This document shows, piece after piece, positions 49,542-58,466 of a stretch of 64,000 nt of DNA. The notes beneath the pieces were generated by a model. It worked only from the letters and a program-made list of their open reading frames with translations, was not told the origin of the DNA and searched no databases. A program made the translations under genes and the position numbers. This stretch comes from Myxococcales bacterium. Its GTDB lineage: Bacteria; Myxococcota; B64-G9. How positions within the stretch are numbered: the first letter of the stretch is position 1; each line of letters opens with the position of its first letter. The DNA is taken from assembly GCA_012798435.1 (NCBI GenBank), contig JAAZNF010000056.1, positions 1-64,000 of the forward strand, written 5' to 3'.

Positions 49542-49626
49542 TGGCCCATACCTAACACGACGTTGCCGCATTGACAAGCTCATCCAGGCATGGCGAGATC
49601 ACGGCGTCTGCCGCGGAGGTCGGATC

Positions 49627-50748
49627 GTGCCCCGCCTGGACATGTGGGTTGCGGCGTCTTTGACCATCCTGCTCGGCCTGGCCGGTTGCGCCGAGGAGGT
49701 GCCGCCCGAGCTTCGCGACCTTCCGCCGAGCGGGAGCGCGGCGCTCGACCCGGCGCGCCTGCCGCTCGGCCCGGCGGCGGACGGCGAGCTTTCGCTCTCG
49801 CGCATCCTGGTCGCCTGGGACGGCAGTCATCCCCCGCGGCGCAGCCGCCTCTCGCACGCCCAGGCCCAGCGCCGGGCGGCCATCCTGTGCGCTCTCGCCC
49901 GCGCCGAGGGCGCCGACTTCGCATCCCTGGCCCGACGGTTCTCGGACGACACCCAGACCTCCGCCTCCGGCGGCGAGCTGGGCGTGGTGAGCGGTTGGTC
50001 CCTCCACCCCGACGTGGAGCGAGCGGCGCGCTCGTTGGCCCTGGGGCAGGTCTCCGACCCCATCGAGACCCCCGAGGGTTTCATCCTGCTCTTGCGGCAC
50101 GCGCCCAACTGGGCCCAGGCCGCCGAGGTGGTGGTGAGCTTCGAGGGGGCGGTTCGCTACACGCCCCGGGAGCGGCGCGATCGCGAGCGGGCCCGCGCGC
50201 TGGCCGAGGAGATCCGGCGGCGGGTGCTGGACGGCGCCTCGATCGAGGAGGAGGCGCTGCGCTTCTCCGACGCGCCGGAATTCGAGCGCGGCGGGATCGC
50301 CCCCCCCTTCGCCCGCGGCAGCCGCCATCCGGAGTTCGAGGCGGTGGTGTGGGCCCTCCCGCCGGGCGGGGTCTCCGAGGTGATCGAGACCCCCACCGGG
50401 TTCCACCTGGTGCGCCGCCTCCCCATCGAATACGCCCAGGTCCGGCGCATCGACGTGTTCTTTCAGCAGGCCAGCGAGGATCTCTCCTCCAACCATACCC
50501 GCGACGAGGCGCGCGCCCTGATCGAGGAGGCGCTGCGGCGCGCCCTGGCCCCGGGCGCCGATTTCGCCGCGCTGGCGGTGGAGCTGTCGGAAGGCCCCGA
50601 CGCCGGAAACGGTGGGCGGGTCGAGCCCTTTCCCCGGGGGTCGCAGCCGTATTCGCTCGAGCGGGTCGCGTTCCGGCTCGCCGAGGGTCAGGTCTCTGGA
50701 GTGCTGGAGCTTCCCACGGGCTTCACCATCTTGAAACGGATCCACTGA
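49627..50748 (+). CDS. Triple-parvulin lipoprotein (peptidyl-prolyl isomerase type)
   Basis: A 373-residue predicted lipoprotein. GTG at 49627 has GGAGG 8 bases upstream and gives signal peptide plus lipobox L-A-G-C21. Three parvulin (PpiC/SurA-like rotamase) domains follow at about 54-160, 165-265 and 270-373. Each shows the family's A(x)DFA(S/A)LA-FSD or -LSE motif and GG-x-V/GFHL-type ending: DFASLARRFSDDTQTSASGG, LDGASIEEEALRFSD, and DFAALAVELSEGPDAGNGG. Catalytic residues of all three cannot be verified by eye. It probably folds or holds secreted proteins in the periplasm; its stop overlaps the MG2 gene start. Confidence 0.88.
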   Translation: MPRLDMWVAASLTILLGLAGCAEEVPPELRDLPPSGSAALDPARLPLGPAADGELSLSRILVAWDGSHPPRRSRLSHAQAQRRAAILCALARAEGADFASLARRFSDDTQTSASGGELGVVSGWSLHPDVERAARSLALGQVSDPIETPEGFILLLRHAPNWAQAAEVVVSFEGAVRYTPRERRDRERARALAEEIRRRVLDGASIEEEALRFSDAPEFERGGIAPPFARGSRHPEFEAVVWALPPGGVSEVIETPTGFHLVRRLPIEYAQVRRIDVFFQQASEDLSSNHTRDEARALIEEALRRALAPGADFAALAVELSEGPDAGNGGRVEPFPRGSQPYSLERVAFRLAEGQVSGVLELPTGFTILKRIH

Positions 50749-53561
50749 TGCCGGTGCCTGGGTTCGACCCCACCCCGGACCGCCCCAACGCTGGCGGCCA
50801 GCACCATCGAAGCGCCCGGCTGCTCCTGCTGGCGCTGGTCCTCCTCTCGGCCGACCCGGCCTGGGCCGGCCGCCCCGAAGTGGATCTGTGGGTGTGGGGA
50901 CAGGATCAATGGGCCCCGGGAGAGGAGGCCTGGCTGCGGATCGTGGTGCGCCTGTCGACGAGCCTCTCCCAGAGCGCACCGCTCCCACTCGCCGCCATCG
51001 AGGTCGAGTTGGCGGGCCCGAACGGCGCGCACAAGCTGCTTTCGGCCCGCAGCGATCTGCTGGGCACGCTCGAGGCGCGCCTCCACGTCCCCGATGAGCC
51101 CGAGGGAGAGTACACCGTCGCGGTGCGTTGCCGGACACCCTTCGGCGATCGCAGCCTGACTCGCCCCGTGCGCCTGGTGCGGACCGTCCGAGCCCTGGCG
51201 ACGAGCGACAAGCGGGCCTACCGACCGGGCCAACCCATCCGCGTTCGGACGGTGCTGCTGGACGGAGCGACCGGCTCCCCGCGCGCAAACCAGGCGCTGG
51301 AAGTTGCGTTGCGAGACGCCCACGGCGTCGAGATCCAGCGCCAGGACGTGGCCACCGACGAGGCCGGCGTGGCGTTGGCCACCTTCGAACCGCTGCCCGC
51401 GGCGGCCGCCGGCCTCCTCCGCGCCCGGGTGCGCGTCCCTGGCCCCGGGATGCTCGTGCCGGAGATCCCCCTGTGGTTGCTCCCTGCGACGGCTCCCACC
51501 GGCGCGCCCGGCGACGACCCTCCACCGCCGGCAGCACCCCCCGCGGGCGGTTTCACCCTGGAGATCGAGCCGGAAGGTGAACGCCTGGTGGCGGGCGTGG
51601 AGAATCGCCTGCTGCTGCGCCTGCTGGGACCAAGGGGACAACCGGCGCGGGCCTCGCTGCGCCTGGTCCGGCCGGAGCGGGAGATGGGCCCGGCCGTCAT
51701 CGGGGCGGACGGGCGAGGCGAAATCAGAGTATTGGTCCCCGTGGACGAGCTGGCGTCCGGAGCCGCCCCCTACCCGGCGGTGGCCGCCAGCGGCCGGTTC
51801 GCCGTCCCCGAGGCCGCCCGCCGTGAACCTCCTCGGGTGTGGACGGCCCGGGCTGAGGCGGTGCTGCCTTCGGGGGAGAGTGTCCACCGGGAGCTGCTTT
51901 TTCCGGTCCAGCCCGAGCATGATCGCTTGCTGCTGCGCCTGGGCAAGAGCCGGTTGCGCCAGGGAGACGCCGTCGAGGTCAGCGTGCTCTCCCCGGAGGA
52001 TGGCGCCTGCTTCCTGGAGATCTTCCGGGAGGGCCAGGCCCTCGACGGTCGGGCGCTGCCGATCGTGCGGGGCCGGGGAGAATTTCGCTTCACCCCGGAC
52101 CGGGCGGGCCGCTACTGGATCCAGGCCTGGCGGCTGTACCCGGACGGCGGGCAGAACCACCACACCCTGCCCCTCTCGGTCGTCGCCGACGGCGCGCTGA
52201 AAATCGATATCGCCCGGGATCGGGCGCGCTACCAGCCGGGGCAGGAGGCCCGCCTGCGAATCCTGACTACGGACGAGGGCGGTCGGCCGATCCGGGCGGT
52301 GCTGGGATGGACGATCCTGCACGAGGCCCTGGACCCGGATGCAAGCCCGGCGACGCCGCGAGCGTTCGATCCGCTCGCCAGCATGGACGAGCCGTCGCAC
52401 CCCCCGCTCCTCTCCTTGTGGCAGAACCCCTTCGAGCAGCGCAAGCTCTCGGCCGAGGACGACCGCCGGGCCATCCAGAGCGCGCTGTACCGGCGGCTGG
52501 AGCGCTCCCTCCCCCTGGGCGAGCGCGGGCCCGACGGACGGTGGCGATACTTCCCCGACCTCTTCGCCGAGCTCGGTCGGGACAACTCGCTTCCCGAAGC
52601 GCATCGGCTCGACCCCTTCGGTGAGCCCTACGCCCCGCAGACCGTGGGGGAGCTGTGGCCGGAGCTCTCGGCCGGAGCCTTCTTGCCCTCTCAGGATCTC
52701 AACCGGCTGCTGGGCCTGCGCGCCACGCTGGTGGCGCGGCTCGTGGAACAAATCGCGCGGGAGCCGAAGCTGTCCGAGCCGCTGGGCGAGCGCCTGCGGC
52801 GCGAGCTTGCCGCCATCGTAGGCTCAGACGCCGGCGCGGAGTACCTGCACAGCGTCTCTGGGGAACCATACTCTTTGGATTGGATCGAGGAGGCCTTCGC
52901 GCCGGAGGAGCTGGCCCGCGACGTCCATGCCCCGCGCGCGCAGGCGGTGTTTTTGGCGCTGGCGCAATACCTGGCGGAGTCCGAACGCTGGTATCGCTCT
53001 TCGGCCTGTCCGGCGTCAGGCGCCTGTCGGCTCCCGGCCGACGTGCTGGACCGGCTGCTCATGCGAGGCCTGCTGGAGGCCGACCAGGCGCGGGACGCGT
53101 GGGGCCGCCCCTTTCGCATCCAACCCGATCCCGCCGGCCGCCCGTTCCCGGCGCAGCCCCGGCTGGGCGGGATCGCCTTGCTCTCGGACGGAGAGGATGG
53201 CGTGGCAGGCACCACGGACGACGTCCGACTCGATCCCTTCCCGCTGGACGGCGGGTTGCGCTCGCTCTCGCGCCGGCTCGGACTGGTGGACCCCGCGCCC
53301 GCCGCGCCGCCCGGGAACGGAGCAGCGGCGGCACCGACCACCGCCATCTCCCCGGACGATGCCCCGGCGGAAGCCGACGCCGAGGTCGTGGAGTACACGG
53401 CCGAAAATCTCGTCGACGAGCGCGGCGCCGAGATCCGTGTGCGCCTGCCGGAGCAACGGGCGCGAGTTCGCATGATTTTTTTGGCCCACGACGGGCGCGG
53501 CCTGTACGCCGCGGCGGTGCACTACATCGACATCGATGCGCCGGTACGCGCCGAACGTTGA
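50748..53561 (+). CDS. Macroglobulin-like (MG2 domain) secreted protein without thioester
   Basis: A 937-residue exported protein. Signal peptide to about 41, then beta-sandwich macroglobulin-type domains: Asp154-centred DKRAYRPGQPIRVR and, near 485, DRARYQPGQEARLR are MG2 'P-G-Q' signatures seen in bacterial alpha-2-macroglobulins (YfaS/YfhM). There is no thioester motif (CGEQ-like) and the chain ends at about half the length of those proteins, so it cannot trap proteases by thioester. The end has EDGVAGTTDDVRLDPF, a phrase like calcium-binding tails of type II secretion pseudopilins. It starts with TGATG overlap after the parvulin gene, which suggests joint translation and folding help. Confidence 0.82.
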   Translation: MPVPGFDPTPDRPNAGGQHHRSARLLLLALVLLSADPAWAGRPEVDLWVWGQDQWAPGEEAWLRIVVRLSTSLSQSAPLPLAAIEVELAGPNGAHKLLSARSDLLGTLEARLHVPDEPEGEYTVAVRCRTPFGDRSLTRPVRLVRTVRALATSDKRAYRPGQPIRVRTVLLDGATGSPRANQALEVALRDAHGVEIQRQDVATDEAGVALATFEPLPAAAAGLLRARVRVPGPGMLVPEIPLWLLPATAPTGAPGDDPPPPAAPPAGGFTLEIEPEGERLVAGVENRLLLRLLGPRGQPARASLRLVRPEREMGPAVIGADGRGEIRVLVPVDELASGAAPYPAVAASGRFAVPEAARREPPRVWTARAEAVLPSGESVHRELLFPVQPEHDRLLLRLGKSRLRQGDAVEVSVLSPEDGACFLEIFREGQALDGRALPIVRGRGEFRFTPDRAGRYWIQAWRLYPDGGQNHHTLPLSVVADGALKIDIARDRARYQPGQEARLRILTTDEGGRPIRAVLGWTILHEALDPDASPATPRAFDPLASMDEPSHPPLLSLWQNPFEQRKLSAEDDRRAIQSALYRRLERSLPLGERGPDGRWRYFPDLFAELGRDNSLPEAHRLDPFGEPYAPQTVGELWPELSAGAFLPSQDLNRLLGLRATLVARLVEQIAREPKLSEPLGERLRRELAAIVGSDAGAEYLHSVSGEPYSLDWIEEAFAPEELARDVHAPRAQAVFLALAQYLAESERWYRSSACPASGACRLPADVLDRLLMRGLLEADQARDAWGRPFRIQPDPAGRPFPAQPRLGGIALLSDGEDGVAGTTDDVRLDPFPLDGGLRSLSRRLGLVDPAPAAPPGNGAAAAPTTAISPDDAPAEADAEVVEYTAENLVDERGAEIRVRLPEQRARVRMIFLAHDGRGLYAAAVHYIDIDAPVRAER

Positions 53562-55557: not shown

Positions 55558-56013
<456 letters not shown>

Positions 56014-56118
56014 GAGACACCTCCTTGCCGAAAGTAGCCGGCAGTACGCCATCTCCCGCGGTCCAAGTCAAGCGAAACACATCCATGACCCGCCTTTACA
56101 TCCGCCCTCGGTTGCCGG

Positions 56119-57543
56119 ATGCTGTGTCCCGTGCGCGCCCGGCTGCATGCCTTCCTGAACCACCCCGCCACCGACCTTTCGGTGGCCACGCTCATCCTGG
56201 TGTCGGTGGTCTTGCTGCTGACCGAGATCTTCGTCCCCGTCACCCACCCGGTCTTCGAGCCGGTGGAGATGGCCGGCCACGCGCTCACCGCCTTCTTCGC
56301 GCTGGAGCTTCTGTTGCGCCTGGTCGCCATGCCCTCGCGCCGGCGGTTCTTCGCCCTGTACTGGCTGGACGTGCTGTCGGTGCTGCCGCTGCTGCGGCCC
56401 TTCCGCCTGCTGCGGGTGCTGCGGCTGCTACGCCTGCTGCGGCTCGGCAACATCCTCAACCGGCGCATGGGCGTGCTCGGCGGCAGCCTGCGCCCGGTGC
56501 GCTTCGAGCTGCTGGCGCTGTTCTCCATGCTGGTCATCGTGGTGTTGGTGGGGGCCATCGGGCTGCACCTGGCCGAGCGGCACCAGGCACAGGAGTACCA
56601 GAGCCTCTCCGATGCCTTCTGGTGGAGCGTGTACTCACTGGTGGCGGTCCAGCCGGAGCCCGGGGTGCCCGCCACCGCCATGGGCCGGGCGGTGACGCTC
56701 CTGGTGATGCTGTGCGGAGTGGGCCTGCTGGCCACCTTCACCGGTATCGTGGCAGCGTCCATGGTCAACCGCCTGCGCGGCCGCATGGAGGAAAAGGACA
56801 TGTCGCTTGCGGAACTCACAGGCCACCTGGTGGTGTGTGGTTGGAACCGGATGGGCTACCAGGTGCTCTCCCAGCTGCGCGCCGACCCGGAGCTGTCGCG
56901 CCAGTACGTGGTGTTGGTCGTCGAGTCCGAGGAGCCGCCCAAGCCGCTACCCATTCCGACGGACCAGTTCTACCTGGTGAACGGCGACTTCACCCGGGTG
57001 GAGGTGCTGCGCCAGGCGGGAATCGAGCGCGCCGGGCGCGCCATCATCCTCGCCGACAAGACGGTCGCCCGCACCGATCAGGACCGCGACGCCCGCACCG
57101 TGCTGGCGGCGCTCACCATCGAAAAGCTCAACCACAACATCGTCACCTGCGTGGAGCTGCTCAACCGCGACAACCAGAGCCACCTCAAGCTGGCCGGGGT
57201 GGAGGAGGTCGTCGTCCCCGACGAGTACGGTGGAAAGATCCTGGCCCTGGCGGCGCGCCACCGCTGCCTGGTGGCCCTGCTCGACGAGATCCTCACCCGG
57301 GAGCGGGGCAACAACCTGCACCAGCTCCCACTGCCGCCCGCCTGGGCGGGCCAGCGCGTGGCCTTCGCCCACGCAAGGCTCAAGGAAAGATTCGGCGCCG
57401 TGCTGCTCGGGTTGGAGCGGGAGGCCGAGCGCGGCGCGAGGCGGCTCATGACCAATCCGCCGGCGAACGAGCCGCTCCAGGCCGGGGACCGGCTGCTGCT
57501 GCTCGCGCCCGGTTCGGCGCTCGATCTCTCCGAGGAGAGCTGA
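56119..57543 (+). CDS. Voltage-sensor and RCK-type potassium-channel homologue with altered filter
   Basis: A 474-residue six-helix ion channel. Helices S1-S4 span about 20-120; S4 has arginines at 93, 96, 99, 102, 105 and 108, the every-third pattern of voltage sensors. S5, a pore loop and S6 (about 132-222) follow, then an RCK/TrkA-N domain with LVVCGWNRMG (nucleotide-binding loop) and TrkA-C-like end. The pore loop reads WWSVYSLVAVQPEPGVPAT (about 168-186), so the usual TVGYGD selectivity filter is absent. Ion selectivity cannot be predicted: a divergent K+ channel, a non-selective one or a non-conducting sensor are options. It converges with pssA-like gene 3 bases away. Confidence 0.85.
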   Translation: MLCPVRARLHAFLNHPATDLSVATLILVSVVLLLTEIFVPVTHPVFEPVEMAGHALTAFFALELLLRLVAMPSRRRFFALYWLDVLSVLPLLRPFRLLRVLRLLRLLRLGNILNRRMGVLGGSLRPVRFELLALFSMLVIVVLVGAIGLHLAERHQAQEYQSLSDAFWWSVYSLVAVQPEPGVPATAMGRAVTLLVMLCGVGLLATFTGIVAASMVNRLRGRMEEKDMSLAELTGHLVVCGWNRMGYQVLSQLRADPELSRQYVVLVVESEEPPKPLPIPTDQFYLVNGDFTRVEVLRQAGIERAGRAIILADKTVARTDQDRDARTVLAALTIEKLNHNIVTCVELLNRDNQSHLKLAGVEEVVVPDEYGGKILALAARHRCLVALLDEILTRERGNNLHQLPLPPAWAGQRVAFAHARLKERFGAVLLGLEREAERGARRLMTNPPANEPLQAGDRLLLLAPGSALDLSEES

Positions 57544-57546
57544 ACC

Positions 57547-58377
57547 TCAGCCGTTGCGCTCCAGAAAGAACGGGGCGAGGGTGCGCGGCCGCCAGTCGGT
57601 CTGCTGGTGCACCAGCGGCAGGCGGAGCGGCTCGCCGCGGCGAAGCGCGCGCAAGCGCTCGATGTCCTGGTAGGGGATCTGGGTCCAGGCGAGACCCAGA
57701 TAGATGAAGAAGCAGAACAACAGATGATCGAAAAACATGCGCCCGTCGTGAAACATGACAAGGCTCAGCAAAAGCGCCAGCGGCGCTCCCAGCAAGAAGA
57801 CCCAGGCGCCGAGGCGCAACAGGGTCATGAAGCGCCGCTCGTGGTGGTTGACGAACGGGATCGAGGAGAGGTGCAGCAGCGAGCCACCCGCGATGAGCAG
57901 GGCCAGCAGGCCGTTCACCCAGGGCCGCGCCGCGCCGGTCCCCATGGCCACCAGGCTGCTGTTCAGCAACGCCAGGATGAACAGCGCCAGCACCGGCCGG
58001 GGAAGCCCGATCCAGTAGCAGGGGAACGAGAGCGGCCGGGCCTGCTGGCGCGCCTGGCGGATGGTCCCCAGGGCCGCCGGGAAGGCGCCCACGGCGGCGG
58101 CCAGCGGGGCGGGCCAGCCCACCTCGCGCCAGAAGAAGAAGAACACGACAAAAGACATGAAGATCGAGTTGGTGACGAAGTCGCAGACGCTATCCAGGAT
58201 CCCGCCGAAGGTGTCATGCTGCCGGGTGAGCCGGGCCACCAGCCCGTCCAGCACATCGAAGACGTAGGCCAGGCAGATGAGGTAGCAGGCGAGGTGGAAC
58301 TTCCCGTAGAACAGCACGATCACCGCGGCGAAGCCCGCAAGCAAGTTGCCCAGCGTGACGTAGTCCTTGAGTTTCAT
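57547..58377 (-). CDS. pssA: CDP-alcohol phosphatidyltransferase, probably phosphatidylserine synthase
   Basis: A 276-residue integral membrane enzyme that joins CDP-diacylglycerol and an alcohol. The family signature is complete: Asp41-x2-Asp44-Gly45-x2-Ala48-Arg49-x8-Gly58-x3-Asp62-x3-Asp66. About eight helices follow. The N-terminus KLKDYVTLGNLLAGF is like type II phosphatidylserine synthase. ATG at 58377 has AGGAGAGG 9 bases upstream; an in-frame GTG at 58410 is the alternative. Which alcohol (serine, inositol phosphate, glycerol phosphate) is inferred from the N-terminal similarity only. Confidence 0.85.
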   Translation of the reverse strand: MKLKDYVTLGNLLAGFAAVIVLFYGKFHLACYLICLAYVFDVLDGLVARLTRQHDTFGGILDSVCDFVTNSIFMSFVVFFFFWREVGWPAPLAAAVGAFPAALGTIRQARQQARPLSFPCYWIGLPRPVLALFILALLNSSLVAMGTGAARPWVNGLLALLIAGGSLLHLSSIPFVNHHERRFMTLLRLGAWVFLLGAPLALLLSLVMFHDGRMFFDHLLFCFFIYLGLAWTQIPYQDIERLRALRRGEPLRLPLVHQQTDWRPRTLAPFFLERNG

Positions 58378-58466
58378 GCCGCGCGACCTCTCCTGGCCCT
58401 CCCCTGGCACCAGCGGCCGCCTTCATGGCAGATTCCAGCGAGGCTGTCAAACAACACCCCTCCCCC

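Follow-up and report, generated by a model that had tools for sequence, protein, structure and literature searches.

The channel gene and its surroundings

In the window (the whole 64,000-nucleotide stretch of DNA analysed here), positions 56119..57543 of the plus strand hold an uninterrupted reading frame of 474 amino acids, which we assign (by Pfam matches, an AlphaFold2 model with pLDDT 91.3 and the family alignments A1 and A2) to a six-transmembrane voltage-sensor/RCK channel with a GEP-type filter in its Gln variant. The gene stands alone between a divergent gene for a single-strand DNA-binding protein (ssb; 55558..56052, minus strand) and a convergent gene for a CDP-alcohol phosphatidyltransferase-like protein (57547..58410, minus strand), both recognised by reading of their sequences and both placed outside the channel system; a scan for promoters and terminators at the channel gene returned no match. 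Across the wider family described below, no neighbouring gene family was found to be conserved across phyla, and the idea of deriving a functional partner from the gene neighbourhood was dropped because recurrent neighbours were shared only between close relatives. Elsewhere in the window (49590-53561) lies an open reading frame of 1323 aa, the second half of which appears alpha-2-macroglobulin/MG-domain-like by reading of its translation.

The voltage sensor opens with S1-S3 (residues 16-90; 56164..56388, plus strand, as are all features of the gene given below), in which F60 and E63 (S2) together with D84 (S3) are the usual charge-transfer residues, and continues with S4 (residues 91-112, LLRPFRLLRVLRLLRLLRLGNI; 56389..56454), where six arginines (93, 96, 99, 102, 105 and 108) occupy every third place; these arginines and the acidic partners E63 and D84 place the protein in the 6TM voltage-gated superfamily. 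Further along come a pore helix (residues 163-176; 56605..56646, delimited by DSSP of the AlphaFold2 model) with the tryptophan pair W168 W169, a replaced selectivity filter (residues 176-182; 56644..56664), S6 (residues 187-218, CGVGLLATFTGIVAASM; 56677..56772), which follows the GGxxxFAxFTGxVSAxM-type pattern of the family, and an RCK gating domain (residues 235-470; 56821..57528) of the MthK/Slo type, with its H-x-V-x-C-G-W motif and the family-invariant D322-R323-D324-A325-R326. Pfam recognises the membrane part as Ion_trans (1.2e-16) and Ion_trans_2 (5.1e-7), both above their cut-offs, and the RCK part as TrkA_N (5.7e-13) and Slo-like_RCK (1e-11), together with a weak TrkA_C match (25.0 vs a cut-off of 27); no NCBIfam model was found to fit, the nearest being the Kch-type PRK10537 (54.7 bits vs a cut-off of 425). 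Pfam, the structural model and the pore profile agree on the S5-pore helix-S6 architecture of K+ channels, and, among proteins of solved structure, MthK and voltage-gated K+ channels are closest in sequence. The original prediction had described a textbook S4 with six arginines at every third place, a pore helix with WW, an RCK domain, and an open frame with otherwise intact family features, and all of these (voltage sensor, pore helices, S6 and RCK) were recovered here.

A substituted selectivity filter

The pore of the window protein reads W168 W169 S V Y S L V A176 V177 Q178 P179 E180 P181 G182 V P184 A T186, the codons at 56644-56664 being gcg gtc cag ccg gag ccc ggg, and the K+-channel loop TVGYGDxxP is represented by AVQPEPGVP. 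In what we take to be KcsA numbering, T75-V76-G77-Y78-G79 correspond to A-V-Q-P-E, residue for residue (T to A, V retained, G to Q, Y to P and G to E). As the pore-only family profile aligns with KvAP, MloK1 and KcsA without a gap within the filter, we consider TVGYG to have been substituted, and neither deleted nor frame-shifted. The predicted absence of the K+ filter therefore stands, with AVQPEPG aligned ungapped to the TVGYGD position; the reading of the filter as VAVQPEPG was right as regards the missing TVGYG, but the stretch is better parsed as AVQP-EPG, on the conserved motif [A/S]-G-[E/Q]-P (family consensus over residues 176-182: A/S-G-E-P-I-G-G). A CNG-type filter (presumably TIGET-P) was considered and set aside, as the family GE reaches the CNG GE only with a one-residue gap and the profile prefers the ungapped KvAP/KcsA alignment.

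A widely distributed channel family with a Glu/Gln-Pro filter

The GTDB genomes were scanned once with two RCK and S6 patterns from which the filter had been excluded, and this filter-blind scan returned 80 loci, hosted by Myxococcota/'Deltaproteobacteria', Cyanobacteria (Moorena, Symploca, Coleofasciculus, Leptolyngbya and Thermosynechococcus), Planctomycetota, Bdellovibrionota, Acidobacteriota, Riflebacteria, Cloacimonadota and a few genomes binned as Proteobacteria. Among the 76 loci with a readable pore, position 178 is occupied by E in 69, by Q in 6 and by S in 1 (i.e. E or Q in 75/76, with the filter consensus [A/S]-G-E-P), and TVGYG occurs in none (0/76). Because this absence is the rule across the whole family, it amounts to more than chance or a local error. 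The relatives within the host's own family of genomes (48-53% identity, the 53% one being the nearest relative found) read AGEP, SGEP or AGE at the filter, and those in a second family of the host phylum (38-40% identity) AGEP or ASEP. The step from the G-E-P of these sisters to V-Q-P requires in-frame substitutions and no indel. The window protein thus has the less common Gln form (VQP), seen again on separate branches: the Gln members of Planctomycetota read SLQP, SNQP or AVQP, the last being (in L082 and L160) the same four residues as in the window protein, acquired independently. The search for homologues with the same PEPG loop, suggested along with the original prediction, was rewarded by a large family with a related loop, PEPG itself being peculiar to the window protein; and what had been taken for a filter lost in an otherwise ordinary K+ channel is instead a Gln-variant member of an old clade with an [A/S]-G-E-P filter.

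In surveys of single phyla (counting full-family scores only, save for one fragment in the host-phylum set), the family was detected in 13/195 genomes of the host phylum, in about 5/339 of Cyanobacteria and in 23/343 of Planctomycetota. In the latter two surveys, every match of at least 490 bits has an E/Q-type filter, while TVG[Y/F]G is found in 11 of the 12 matches of at most 257 bits, and on account of this gap in score (257 vs 490 bits) we hold that the E/Q-type and TVGYG-type channels do not intergrade. We accordingly define the GEP-filter VSD-RCK family by a score of at least 490 bits to the A2 profile, an [E/Q]P filter and DRDAR in the RCK domain; the window protein scores 720 bits to the A1 profile and has Q178-P179 and D322-R323-D324-A325-R326. 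PF02254 and PF22614 are matched in all 54 members of the non-redundant alignment. No description of the family was found in the open-access literature that was searched (subscription papers and preprints being outside the scope of the search). Judged by these sequence features, we regard the window gene as a member of a widely spread and previously unnamed bacterial family of putative voltage-sensing, ligand-gated channels with a conserved Glu/Gln-Pro filter.

Ancestry, conservation and selection

In a careful tree the GEP family forms a clade apart from its TVGYG sisters (support 98/70), and it does so as well in a quick tree from which the filter columns were left out (96 SH-aLRT). These TVG[Y/F]G sisters (L113, L114, L115, L117 and L119) occur in the same or related genomes, have the same voltage sensor-pore-RCK order, score no higher than about 225 bits against the family profile and form a clade of their own. 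The window protein belongs to a clade of seven Myxococcota proteins (100/98), being the only one of them with Gln and the one on the longest branch (0.76 vs 0.21-0.62). Since E and Q have interchanged at least four times on the tree, the Gln can be viewed as a recurrent natural state. The notion that an extra acid nearby compensates for it was set aside, as an acid within the next six residues is present in 5/6 Q and 21/47 E members, which are too few. A further set of TVGYG channels (L132 from Moorena, L137, L138, L139 and L162) has little sequence before the pore and an RCK domain near that of the GEP family (183-257 bits), and these channels are a possible source of its RCK domain or of its canonical ancestor.

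Within the non-redundant alignment, F60, E63, D84, R99 and R105 are invariant (54/54), the S4 arginines R96 (51/53), R102 and R108 (51/54 each) are close to it, and in the pore W168 (53/54), P179 (49/53), P184 (49/54) and G189 (54/54) are conserved. Over residues 176-182 the mean information (2.69 bits) exceeds that of the pore helix (2.37) and comes close to that of S6 (2.79), and pairwise dN/dS is low (cyanobacterial pairs, 0.05-0.12; remaining computable lineages, 0.09-0.39), on which grounds we argue that the replacement loop has been selected for and is not debris. A relaxed or pseudogene state was ruled out by the open frames, the conserved voltage sensor, S6 and RCK domain, and the low dN/dS in relatives. 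The window protein deviates at 12 of 107 strongly conserved family positions (5-9 in its sisters), including E178Q and three sites in S6 (T202G, F204L and S212A), and by its sequence we would describe it as a somewhat faster-evolving family member.

Predicted structure and relation to known channels

Alignment to bacterial RCK channels and structure prediction had been proposed as checks, and both were carried out, the first giving MthK among the best solved relatives and the second a Slo/MthK-like subunit. In both of the monomer models that AlphaFold2 computed from the family alignment (window protein, pLDDT 91.3; a Glu member from Leptolyngbya, 89.0), S1-S6 and the two RCK lobes are present, the pore helix stops at the filter, and the loop there is short, as long as in K+ channels; S6 begins straight after the loop, and a second pore helix of the Nav kind is absent. 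Foldseek searches of the PDB returned MthK and Slo1/Slo2 as best structural matches. The window protein is thus confidently modelled as a Slo/MthK-like subunit, its pore helix, loop and S6 being arranged as they are in K+ channels.

The family shares with MthK and Slo (BK) a pore coupled to an RCK gating ring with the H-x-V-x-C-G-W motif (these being its best matches by sequence and fold) and with Slo the voltage sensor; MthK and Slo differ from it in being K+-selective with TVGYG, and Slo furthermore in having two RCK domains per subunit and an S0. The Ca2+ ligands of MthK, which we take to be D184, E210 and E212, have in the sequence alignment the counterparts D320 and E346 in the window protein, the third place being L348; D320 is not conserved in some family members. 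The prokaryotic 6TM RCK K+ channels (i.e. the TVG[Y/F]G sisters above) have the same domain order and differ by their canonical filter. In what we assume to be the correct correspondence, E177 of NavAb is a Glu at the same aligned place as the family filter Glu. BacNav and CavMr resemble the family in their six transmembrane segments, S4 and acidic filter ring (TLESW, TLEGW; PMC7041947), but lack an RCK domain and have a second pore helix after the filter and a TxEx-W motif; the window protein has neither a TxE[S/G]W filter nor that helix. NirBac, first found in Anaeromyxobacter (Myxococcota), likewise combines a K+-channel architecture with a replaced P-loop and is non-selective (PMC4607889), but is of the Kir type, with two transmembrane segments, a Kir domain, no voltage sensor, no RCK domain, unrelated P-loops and few members; the window protein is of the 6TM and RCK type, without the Kir cytoplasmic domain or 2TM layout. 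Finally, CASTOR/POLLUX/DMI1 are similarly RCK-gated, with an acidic filter residue and no TVGYG (PMC6697748), the filter being A-D-S/A-G-N-H-A in plants and D-A-G-T/N-M in bacterial relatives; they have two RCK domains, and no Arg-rich S4 was seen in the bacterial relatives, unlike in the GEP family. As the family filter acid lies, by manual alignment, two places off the equivalent of the CASTOR Asp, this analogy is a loose one.

Proposed function and alternative explanations

The selectivity of tetrameric cation channels is tied to TVGYG, and few departures from it exist. Here, a whole family over several phyla combines a Slo-type voltage sensor and RCK ring with a conserved filter that is differently built and of the same length. 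On the analysis as it stands we consider it probable that the window gene encodes a conducting voltage- and RCK-ligand-gated cation channel which is not K+-selective. The cation channel would be a homotetramer in which every subunit contributes a voltage sensor (S1-S4), a pore segment (S5-P-S6) and, at the C terminus, an RCK domain for the gating ring. At the level of the first filter glycine, where backbone carbonyls are stacked in K+ channels, the tetramer would present a ring of four Glu (four Gln, Q178, in the window protein, whose E180 lies two residues further out), each followed by Pro. P179 would kink the filter backbone and, with Y replaced by P and both glycines changed, the stacked carbonyl sites for K+ could presumably not form as they do in K+ channels; the pore would be wider, would not strip K+ of its water, and would either let cations through without selection or be open to Ca2+ or other divalents. 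Membrane voltage (via S4) and a cytosolic ligand (via the RCK ring) would jointly control its opening, as in Slo/BK.

There is precedent for both outcomes: in NirBac, unrelated P-loops still yield stable tetramers, through which Li, Na, K and Rb pass to the same extent (PMC4607889), CASTOR, an RCK channel that likewise lacks TVGYG, is Ca2+-selective (PMC6697748), and CavMr illustrates that a bacterial Glu-ring filter with an adjacent Gly can select Ca2+ (PMC7041947). The neutral Gln ring of the window protein would bind divalents less well, and in its case a non-selective pore that admits monovalent ions is the likeliest; perhaps, then, Glu members are Ca2+-permeable and Gln members such as the window protein more monovalent. 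A bolder proposal, which we put forward tentatively and hold to be rather doubtful, is that of a voltage- and ligand-gated Ca2+/divalent channel family on a Slo-like frame, in which the Glu-Pro ring selects Ca2+, the Gln members have gone over to monovalent ions and cytosolic signals are sensed by the RCK domain. If true, cyanobacteria, planctomycetes and myxobacteria would possess a Ca2+ entry route under voltage and ligand control, and Glu members passing Ca2+ would constitute a bacterial class of voltage- and ligand-gated Ca2+ channels not recognised before. The natural E/Q variants at one position offer a test of whether a single filter ring sets ion choice, for which the TVGYG sisters, alike in architecture and present in the same organisms, are ready controls.

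The same filter could be read in the opposite sense, its Pro-rich loop closing the pore and leaving a non-conducting sensor that reports voltage and RCK ligand by conformational change only. No conducting filter with such a sequence is known, a GYGD-to-GAGD change renders the related K+ channel SynK non-conducting (PMC2853561) and, of concern above all for the Gln members, neutralisation of the filter Asp of CASTOR (D265N) abolishes its current (PMC6697748), which is why the equally neutral Gln of the window protein might mean little or no conduction. We nevertheless regard such a sensor as unlikely, given that conservation of the replacement filter over at least seven phyla matches that of the remaining pore, that S6 and RCK are intact, that the neighbourhoods yielded no conserved partner gene to read out a sensor, and that unrelated P-loops do conduct in NirBac (PMC4607889); no feature of the sequence demands it. 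Of the two outcomes originally predicted, different ion selectivity thus remains the best reading, and the sensor is disfavoured by filter conservation across phyla, purifying selection and the examples of NirBac (PMC4607889) and CASTOR (PMC6697748). It is more improbable still that the unorthodox filter keeps a K+ preference, with voltage and RCK gating serving K+ homeostasis: the closest solved relatives by sequence and fold are K+ channels and the gene is the only Ion_trans_2 match in the 97%-complete host genome, but none of the residues whose backbone forms the K+ sites is retained (E/Q for G77, P for Y78, various residues for G79), sisters with TVGYG and an equal architecture are present in the same genomes or families (and K+ function need not rest on the GEP gene), and the host also encodes TrkH-type K+ uptake.

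Returning to the non-K+-selective channel as our preferred reading, two further objections carry very little weight. A sequencing or assembly error in an ordinary GEP-family or TVGYG gene might be suspected in a metagenome-type assembly of 129 contigs, the nearest relative found being 53% identical. However, an open, indel-free frame runs through the gene, TVGYG is equally missing from sisters of about 50% identity, E178Q and V177 recur elsewhere (AVQP in L082 and L160) and the substitutions are spread over the whole protein at normal density; such an error, to which we attach scarcely any probability as an account of the VQPEPG loop, appears unlikely in the case of the Gln and very unlikely in that of the family trait. 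Just as remote is the proposition that the family consists of bacterial CASTOR/POLLUX channels with a voltage sensor added. It was raised by PF06241 (Castor_Poll_mid), matched by 18/54 members, and by CASTOR and DMI1 as best PDB matches of the family RCK profile (106 and 92 bits, domains summed). The Pfam hint was abandoned after controls with outgroups, single domains and bacterial relatives: PF06241 is matched as often by TVGYG outgroups (7/17) and not by the window protein, MthK leads when single domains are scored (75 vs 65 bits), and in true bacterial CASTOR-like proteins there are two RCK domains, the voltage sensor is missing and the filter is D-A-G, while the window protein has one RCK domain and an [A/S]-G-[E/Q]-P-type filter instead of the two RCK domains and D-S/A-G of CASTOR/POLLUX.

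Variants within and around the family

Five Planctomycetota members with an ATEP filter (L088, L089, L093, L090 and L086) have 66-92 extra residues after window position 155, an insert with many charged residues that would form an extracellular turret between S5 and the pore helix. In three Thermosynechococcus members (L061, L062 and L064) S4 is degraded (in L064 it reads PPQWPLFRLLPLLRLPRAS, with three Arg and several Pro) while the filter, S6 and RCK domain are retained, and these may perhaps be family members that have lost voltage sensing. The member from Synechococcaceae SM2_3_1 (L096) is split across two reading frames (161 + 366 aa) by a frameshift or an assembly error. A further kind of TVGYG-less channel, with the pore ISGLDDSKEP or MSGYDIDKP, is represented by L014 (G023:C488), which has a very long branch in the tree, and L165 (G843:C110). 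The bacterial CASTOR/POLLUX-like proteins (L172-L191) are characterised by dual RCK domains, the lack of an Arg-rich S4 and a conserved L/A/F-D-A-G-T/N-M pore motif; PF06241 is matched in 38/189 genomes of the host phylum, and the genome to which the window belongs (G000) itself carries two CASTOR-like copies, on contig C11 at about 29039 (L176) and on contig C72 at about 80448.
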